From Chloroflexota bacterium (GTDB taxonomy: Bacteria; Chloroflexota; Limnocylindria; Limnocylindrales; CSP1-4), in NCBI GenBank assembly GCA_025358515.1, contig JANYJG010000090.1:1-32155 (forward strand): a stretch of DNA of 32,155 bases, in the 5' to 3' direction. The translations under genes and the position numbers were made by a program. The notes under the pieces were generated by a model, which was given only the letters and a program-made list of their open reading frames with translations, had not been told where the DNA came from and made no database searches. The first letter of the stretch is position 1; the number at the start of each line of letters is the position of its first letter. Shown here piece by piece: positions 22,060 to 23,878 of this stretch.

Positions 22060-23382
22060 TCAGGTCACGGACGCCTCATCGGACTGCCGCTCCCACCGGC
22101 CGATGCTGGCAAAGACGCCCGGCAAATAGCGGCGGCGATGGACGAGCAGGCCCAGTGCGACGACGATGTAGATGACCGAGAAGACGACCCGCACATCGGT
22201 CGTGGGGAACGGGAACTGGACGATGAACAGCCCGAAGATTGCCGCAGCCTCCCATAGTCCGAAGCGACGGTCGGCCAGGACAGCGAAGGCGAGGAGGGCC
22301 TGGGCGCTGGTAAGTAGGAACTCCTCCGTCTGGCGATTGTCCAGCGGCAGCGCCGCTCCCCCTCCGCCGCCGAGCGAGTAGGCCACCCACAGGCTGCCAA
22401 CGAGCAGCGTCCACTGATTCACCTTGGCGGAAAGCAGCATGCCGAGACCCTCGTCGGCGTTGAGACGCCAGGCGAAGATCGTCGCCACGATCAGCTCGGG
22501 CGCCTCGGACGAGAGCGGCGCCAGCCACTGGACGAGCAGGAACTGGTCGATGTGGAGCGATTCGCCGGTGGCCACGAGACCATCGGCGAACGGCTTTGCG
22601 GCGGCGACGACGATGGCCGCTGCGGCGAGGAACAGGCCCGCAACCAGCAGGCGGCGTCGGCGGCGAGGGAGCAGCGCGATGTCGGCAGCCAGGCCGATCA
22701 GTTCGGGCTCGCCGCGCCCTTCCCGGGTGACACGCCAGAGGTAGGCACCGAACAGCGCCAGCAGGATGACGGAGTCGTACCAGGCGATCGAGTGGGTCAG
22801 CGGGATGAGGAACGCATAGGCGCTGGCGATCGCCAGGAACGCCAGCTCGACGCGGTTGCGGGCCGGCAGGACAACCGCAGGCTCGCGGTGCCCGGGTATG
22901 AGCTTCGGACGCGGCTCGACCGCGCTCAGACGCGGCTCGACCGTGCCCGGCTCGACCGCGCTCGGCTCGACCGCGCTCGGACGCTGCTCGACCGTGCCAC
23001 GCCACCGGTGGCGTCGCACCGCCCAGAACCCGACGAACGCGACGACAGGCCAGCCGATCCCGATGAGGAGCCTGTTCGAGCCCGTCATATTCGCCGAGGC
23101 GAACTGCACATAGCTCGGGTCGCTCCCCCCGGTATAAGCGAAGTACAGGTCCACGGCGTACTCAGGCAGGACGGCAATAAGCGCGAGGATGGCGATCGCG
23201 AGGCTGCCGGAGATATCGACCTGGGCCGCTTCGGCCGCCCAGGACAGGAGGACCGCCGCAGCGACGACGCCGGCGCCGAATACCAGGACGGTGAGCTCCG
23301 GCGACAGCGTGGTCCCGCTAAGCCGCAGCACCATCGCGGGAAGGGCGACGCTCGCCGTGAGTCCAAGCCTGCGCCACATCAT
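22060..23382 (-). CDS. CaCA-superfamily cation (Ca2+/Na+/Mn2+) exchanger
   Basis: Two inverted alpha-repeat-like segments (PEYAVDLYFAY...ANMTGSNRLLIGIGWP and SEAPELIVATIFAWRLNADEGLGMLLSAKVNQWTLLVGSLW); start set at ATG 23382 with GGAGG SD 5 nt upstream (ORF track starts at GTG 23388). Confidence 0.85.
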   Translation of the reverse strand: MMWRRLGLTASVALPAMVLRLSGTTLSPELTVLVFGAGVVAAAVLLSWAAEAAQVDISGSLAIAILALIAVLPEYAVDLYFAYTGGSDPSYVQFASANMTGSNRLLIGIGWPVVAFVGFWAVRRHRWRGTVEQRPSAVEPSAVEPGTVEPRLSAVEPRPKLIPGHREPAVVLPARNRVELAFLAIASAYAFLIPLTHSIAWYDSVILLALFGAYLWRVTREGRGEPELIGLAADIALLPRRRRRLLVAGLFLAAAAIVVAAAKPFADGLVATGESLHIDQFLLVQWLAPLSSEAPELIVATIFAWRLNADEGLGMLLSAKVNQWTLLVGSLWVAYSLGGGGGAALPLDNRQTEEFLLTSAQALLAFAVLADRRFGLWEAAAIFGLFIVQFPFPTTDVRVVFSVIYIVVALGLLVHRRRYLPGVFASIGRWERQSDEASVT

Positions 23383-23409
23383 CGACACCTCCGCTCGCCC
23401 GAGGTGTCG
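23383..23409 (-). promoter_or_regulatory. SD-sequestering hairpin of exchanger mRNA (riboswitch expression platform)
   Basis: Minus strand CGACACCTC-GGGCGAGCG-GAGGTGTCG, 9 perfect bp, contains most of GGAGG directly before the start codon. Confidence 0.75.
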
Positions 23410-23444
23410 CCTGCGCGCGGCAAGACCTCGACCAAGTGTTACCT

Positions 23445-23550
23445 GGTCGAAGGTCTCGTCCGTCTCACGTCGAGGTGGGGGACCGGGCCGAAGCCGGTAT
23501 GTCGATCTCCCCTGGCCGCCGGGGTGACGGCCGGACTACTCCCCTTCGGG
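23445..23550 (-). ncRNA. yybP-ykoY-type (Mn2+) riboswitch aptamer
   Basis: Minus strand CGAAGGGGAGTAG ... TCGACATACCGGCTTCGGCCCGGT ... GACGAGACCTTCG: P1 CGAAGG/CCTTCG, L1 GGGGAGTAG, L3 GACATAC, 3' GACCTT all match the known motif. Confidence 0.85.
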
Positions 23551-23557
23551 GGCCAGT

Positions 23558-23878
23558 CTAGAGCGGCAGCAGGTAGAGCGCCATCTGCATGGGAGTCCGG
23601 GCCACGAGGCTGTGTTTCACCTCGGGCGCCATGCGTAGCCAGGTTCCCGGCCGGGCGGGATAGGCGTCGCCGCCGACAGTCAGCTCGCCCTCGCCTTCGA
23701 GGATGTGGATAATCGCCGGTCGCGCCGACGTGTGCTCCGAAAGCTGCTCGCCCACGGCGAAGGCGAAGAGCAGGAACTCGACGCCGCCCTCGTCAGAGAG
23801 CGTCTGACTGAGGATGCCTCGAGCCGGGATGGGAGCCTCTGTGGCCAGGTCGGCGAAGAAGGTGTAGGGGGTGGTCAT
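23558..23878 (-). CDS. small cupin-domain protein
   Basis: FAVGEQLSEHTSARPAIIHILEGEGELTVGGDAYPARPGTWLRMAPEVKHSLVARTPMQMALYLL. Confidence 0.88.
   Translation of the reverse strand: MTTPYTFFADLATEAPIPARGILSQTLSDEGGVEFLLFAFAVGEQLSEHTSARPAIIHILEGEGELTVGGDAYPARPGTWLRMAPEVKHSLVARTPMQMALYLLPL

Follow-up and report, generated by a model that had tools for sequence, protein, structure and literature searches.

A predicted yybP-ykoY (Mn2+) riboswitch with a plausible co-transcriptional switch upstream of a CaCA exchanger gene in Chloroflexota

The leader at positions 23548-23383 on the minus strand of the window (the whole stretch of 32,155 nucleotides that was analyzed, from a Chloroflexota bacterium) combines, as judged from sequence and homology, the aptamer of a yybP-ykoY (Mn2+) riboswitch with a translational expression platform downstream of it. 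This class identity, which had been proposed in the initial annotation, is supported since an independent covariance model, R1, bridges the leader to E. coli alx and mntP as well as to loci detected by the Rfam model RF00080, since the L1/L3 core is intact and since the genes found under this aptamer point in the same direction. We regard the complete explanation, in which a Mn2+ aptamer homologue would act as a kinetic ON translational switch of a Mn2+-exporting exchanger, as highly probable. The observations behind it are the homology and structure of the aptamer, the gene context, the conservation of three mutually exclusive pairings and the order of pairing in model folding. The combination of yybP-ykoY identity and a CaCA target is not new in kind because B. 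pertussis already provides a proven Mn exporter of the CaCA superfamily that is controlled by a yybP-ykoY riboswitch.

The leader comprises about 170 nt between a cupin gene (stop codon 23558-23560) and the gene of a CaCA-superfamily exchanger, whose presence downstream the initial annotation had predicted correctly (Table 1). A sequence check recovered all riboswitch motifs at their proposed place on the minus strand. In folding, the leader surpassed all 200 dinucleotide shuffles (z = -4.3). Since this value is joined by the match of the independent covariance model, which is the sole one in the genome, the structure of the leader is not due to chance. A motif TA[GC]ACT was found at the position equivalent to the predicted -10-like element in six of the seven Chloroflexota relatives having this leader. 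Because TAGACT lies just before P1 and recurs in these relatives, transcription probably starts about 6-7 nt downstream of it, at the 5' edge of P1. A GTG within the Shine-Dalgarno (SD) hairpin was rejected as start codon of the exchanger, as the start conserved in the relatives is the ATG at 23379. In exchanger promoters of Actinomycetota (L098, L131, L081, L078, L108) we observed an imperfect palindrome like TTCGTCAGTTGCGCAATTGACGAA, located 25-50 nt before P1, with 22 of 24 matching positions in L098 and 24 of 26 in L081; it is perhaps a transcription-factor operator.

Table 1. Features of the leader and its neighbouring genes (positions of the window)
Feature	Position	Strand	Basis
Cupin gene, same strand, 5' of the leader; neighbour outside the switch	23558..23878	-	PF07883
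-10-like promoter element TAGACT (predicted)	23555..23560	-	Recurrence in relatives; overlaps cupin stop codon
yybP-ykoY-type (Mn2+ riboswitch) aptamer, P1 to P1' (predicted)	23448..23548	-	R1 58.9 bits, E 8.3e-12; core identical in relatives
P1.1 5' strand CGAAGG, partner CCTTCG (23448-23453)	23543..23548	-	Sequence; helix 96.7% paired in A2
L1 5' side GGAGTAG	23536..23542	-	Invariant in A1 and A2
P2 hairpin GGCCGTC...GGCGGCC	23514..23532	-	Sequence and fold
P3 arm: P3.1 GGGGAGATCG/CGGTCCCC, one-sided 7-nt L3, P3.2 GGC-TTCG-GCC	23477..23512	-	Covarying helices 3 and 4 of A2; window fold
L3 ACATACC, third base the putative Mn-contacting adenosine (by X. oryzae match)	23496..23502	-	CA invariant in 24/24 A2 rows
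P4 hairpin CTCGACGTGAG	23464..23474	-	Sequence; 4-bp CCTC/GAGG in relatives
P1.1 3' strand CCTTCG, switching strand	23448..23453	-	Sequence
Anti-P1 strand ACTTGGTCGAGGTCTTGC; takes P1' (pairing a) or anti-SD strand (pairing c)	23420..23437	-	Sequence and folding
Anti-P1 TGGTCGAGGTC	23434-23424	-	
Anti-SD strand GCGACACCTCG; partner SD (pairing b) or anti-P1 (pairing c)	23400..23410	-	Folding and pair counts
Pairing (c), CGAGGTCTTGC with GCGACACCTCG	23430-23420 with 23410-23400	-	10/11 positions
SD hairpin strands, CGACACCTC with GAGGTGTCG	23409-23401 with 23391-23383	-	
Shine-Dalgarno GGAGG, buried in GAGGTGTCG/CGACACCTC	23388..23392	-	Unpaired with mean probability 0.20; 8 nt upstream of ATG
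CaCA-superfamily exchanger (Na_Ca_ex x2)	22060..23379	-	PF01699 E 1.3e-26; ATG start kept in relatives

A genome scan with the exchanger yielded 80 orthologues in Chloroflexota, Actinomycetota and others. The leaders of 24 orthologous exchangers, all from outside Chloroflexota, were aligned (A2) and served as the only source of R1, so that the window was absent from the training set. Two-sided changes were found in 14 of the 25 pairs of A2, which represents covariation across phyla. The covariation score was 0.433, compared with 0.191 +/- 0.014 for shuffles and at most 0.163 for slid controls, the latter comparison somewhat favouring the A2 structure as it was derived from the same alignment. 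Besides its match to the window, R1 matched E. coli alx (42.4 bits), mntP (33.1 bits) and most of the loci detected by RF00080 in the phylum. Among the 80 orthologue loci, 37 carried the leader (24 of these had been in the training set), each directly upstream of the exchanger, and no match occurred elsewhere in the 547 kb. R1 found no second riboswitch in the genome of the window, the assembly of which is incomplete. In another genome (G151), two riboswitch-exchanger copies were observed on contigs C49 and C64 (L021, L036).

The architecture of the aptamer was recovered by RNAalifold, which without prior structure gave P1.1, L1, P1.2, P3.1, L3, P3.2 and P4, with L3 as a one-sided loop of seven bases in the A2 consensus; the P1/L1 sequence GGGGAGUAG...GAGACC and the junction are present, with GAGACC just 5' of the P1 3' strand. 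L1 holds a conserved adenosine that corresponds to A10 of L. lactis and X. oryzae; in the structure of the X. oryzae aptamer, A10 makes the cross-helix A-minor contact (PMC6754395). In the same structure L3 reads ACA48UACU and N7 of A48 contacts Mn2+ (PMC6754395). L3 of the window and of its relatives, where it is mostly ACACACC, matches this loop and retains the invariant adenosine, and the CA invariant among the non-Chloroflexota leaders is also kept in all Chloroflexota relatives. At the level of sequence the L1/L3 metal core, including the putative Mn-contacting adenosine, is therefore intact. Many leaders of Actinomycetota (L078, L092, L095, L118, L120 and similar ones) have no P2 hairpin; since P2 is replaced by a short linker such as CAAG, their junction is three-armed. 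Moreover, a contig labelled Deltaproteobacteria (L103:2818-2919) carries a P3 arm near-identical to the Chloroflexota one, which points to horizontal transfer or to an error in binning.

The initial annotation had named the lack of a significant RF00080 match as evidence against the class, and literally no match was found in the window, neither at the gathering score nor when 351 bases were searched permissively. Across its own genome, judged by score and E-value, the only match was a chance one of 11.5 bits on another contig. RF00080 also failed on the homologous leaders of the relatives, and at the gathering score, which is an operational criterion of the database rather than a property of the RNA, none of 20 R1-positive orthologous leaders passed. 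One orthologous leader (L120) was found by RF00080 with E 1.5e-5. In 18 genomes of the phylum RF00080 gave matches with E<=0.01, of which a single genome passed the gathering score. We explain the miss by limited sensitivity of the Rfam model.

Genes under R1 matches in the same class and phylum encode GDT1/UPF0016, TerC, P-type ATPase and CaCA proteins, and this context of the aptamer fits manganese. Bacterial UPF0016 genes are almost always under a yybP-ykoY riboswitch (PMC7380456). For the CaCA protein BP3410 of B. pertussis, which is also under a yybP-ykoY riboswitch, export of Mn has been shown (PMC8546581). In the exchanger of the window PF01699 matches in two stretches that correspond to two alpha-repeat domains, and both halves align with 4KPP. 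Of the solved chains, 4KPP_A comes closest (E 3e-83), and PMC4031050 describes it as a proton/calcium exchanger. The protein most likely exports Mn2+, possibly together with Ca2+; we infer export of Mn from the riboswitch and from BP3410, and we predict that this branch of exchangers exports Mn2+ where it bears the leader. In the linker that joins the two halves, at 22900-23000 of the window, the gene carries a repeat that stays in frame (GCGGTCGAGCCG-like; SAVEPSAVEPGTVEPRLSAVEP). Other genes were also observed behind the aptamer: in L030 (G007:C99) and L024 (G076:C184) it stands before small Zn_ribbon_TFIIB proteins (PF13453), and in L030 a truncated exchanger-like N-terminus of 54 aa lies between aptamer and Zn_ribbon_TFIIB gene, which suggests a decayed duplicate.

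In the expression platform three mutually exclusive pairings had been proposed, namely P1' with the anti-P1 strand (a), the anti-SD strand with the SD (b) and the anti-P1 strand with the anti-SD strand (c), and all three are conserved between the window and its six near relatives. Across these sequences (b) comprised 8-9 of 9 pairs and (c) 9-10 of 11. Pairing (c) exists as described, but it had been drawn too short as CGAGGT with ACCTCG. In most of the leaders examined, with the exception of L118, a strand further downstream captured P1'. The free full-length leader formed (a) and (b), in agreement with the claim that the SD is buried in a hairpin. When P1 was forced at full length (b) persisted, the unpaired probability of the SD was 0.20 in both states, and the state combining P1 with (c) lay about 5-9 kcal/mol above the SD-hairpin state. 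Opening of the SD at equilibrium was rejected, as forced P1 leaves the SD closed in the window and the six near relatives. An intrinsic terminator as main output was rejected as well because no U-tract follows the anti-P1 hairpin in the leader.

When the transcript stopped immediately 5' of the SD and P1 was forced, (c) had a probability of 0.97-0.99 in all seven sequences; without P1, it reached 0.94 in L059 and was 0.00 in the other six. Hence, of the proposed path from P1 over (c) to an exposed SD, the formation of (c) held in transcripts that lack the SD, whereas at full length the SD stays closed. In flank-shuffled controls the mean of (c) was still 0.53-0.77, and to some extent this pairing results from the other two. 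Since the SD hairpin is favoured at full length even with P1 forced, exposure of the SD would need kinetic control, and in our reading the leader is plausibly a co-transcriptional (kinetic) ON switch. According to this model, in which ligand, ON polarity, kinetic control and transported substrate are all predicted, transcription would start at the P1 edge and at high Mn2+ the L1-L3 docked aptamer would keep P1 closed. The anti-P1 strand would then be free to seize the emerging anti-SD strand before the SD is synthesised, leaving the SD open for translation of the exchanger. At low Mn2+ the anti-P1 strand would strip P1' and leave the anti-SD strand free, which would close on the SD and turn translation off.

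A Mn2+ aptamer with OFF polarity, or with an output based on Rho or on RNA stability and the SD hairpin as a mere by-product, would account for the persistence of this hairpin at full length with P1 formed, and control of E. coli mntP is reported to depend on both Rho and a riboswitch (PMC11647493). Such an output is nevertheless unlikely, as the result for the SD-less transcripts was clean in six of seven sequences, the anti-P1 hairpin has no following U-tract, and in L062, which has a different platform, forcing P1 opened the SD from 0.00 to 0.60 even at equilibrium. The ligand itself may be questioned as well. With a proton/calcium exchanger as nearest solved relative, the substrate of the exchanger could be Ca2+, and a variant of the yybP-ykoY fold sensing Ca2+ or another divalent ion would match it; according to a review, yybP variants that differ in their specificity for divalent ions are to be expected (PMC7266159). 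We consider this very improbable, as none of the 24 leaders has lost the L1/L3 core or the adenosine that would contact Mn, and as GDT1 and TerC, the classic Mn set, are among the genes that follow this aptamer in the class.

It would be similarly surprising if the GC-rich, partly P2-less leaders formed a distinct, Rfam-invisible yybP-ykoY subclass with a ligand tuned to the exchanger (Ca2+ or a Mn/Ca ratio) and a kinetic-only three-way translational switch. That the leader contains no ligand-binding aptamer and is an ordinary structured leader or a set of chance hairpins would agree with the missing RF00080 match in the window, but is hardly conceivable in view of the E-value of the R1 match, the cross-phylum covariation and the matches to E. 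coli alx and mntP. We retain the Mn2+-responsive translational ON switch as the preferred reading.

Similar to the RF00080 aptamers of E. coli mntP/alx, L. lactis yoaB and X. oryzae, the leader has P1.1, a sarcin-ricin-like L1, the junction, P4 and a one-sided L3 of 7 nt that includes the metal-contacting A, and it is located upstream of a predicted cation exporter; the translational output predicted here is also the one reported for E. coli mntP. It differs from them in its short and GC-rich arms, in a window score below the RF00080 threshold, in the P2 hairpin missing from many Actinomycetota relatives and in its target, a 4KPP-like CaCA exchanger. BP3410 is likewise a CaCA-superfamily gene under a yybP-ykoY riboswitch with export of Mn shown for its product. 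However, its closest solved relative is the M. jannaschii antiporter (PMC8546581), whereas the protein of the window matches 4KPP, and its control was described as stopping of RNA polymerase in the leader (PMC8546581) instead of the translational sequestration predicted here. In Chloroflexota, YrbG-type exchangers (L042, L047-L049) have the same aptamer type, detected by RF00080, before Na_Ca_ex genes, but they belong to another CaCA branch and possess other leaders.

The standard model has a sizeable blind spot: the orthologous leaders of Chloroflexota and Actinomycetota, with Mycobacterium, Amycolatopsis and Saccharopolyspora among the genera represented, structurally have a clear Mn2+-riboswitch look, yet none of 20 reached the Rfam threshold. 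With three exclusive helices that are sufficiently short and clean, the switch lends itself to direct mutational tests. In these bacteria, a widespread branch of exchangers with a solved relative named as a proton/calcium exchanger is predicted to export manganese. The leader also suggests that manganese export by this family of pumps may extend to many bacteria of soil and water.
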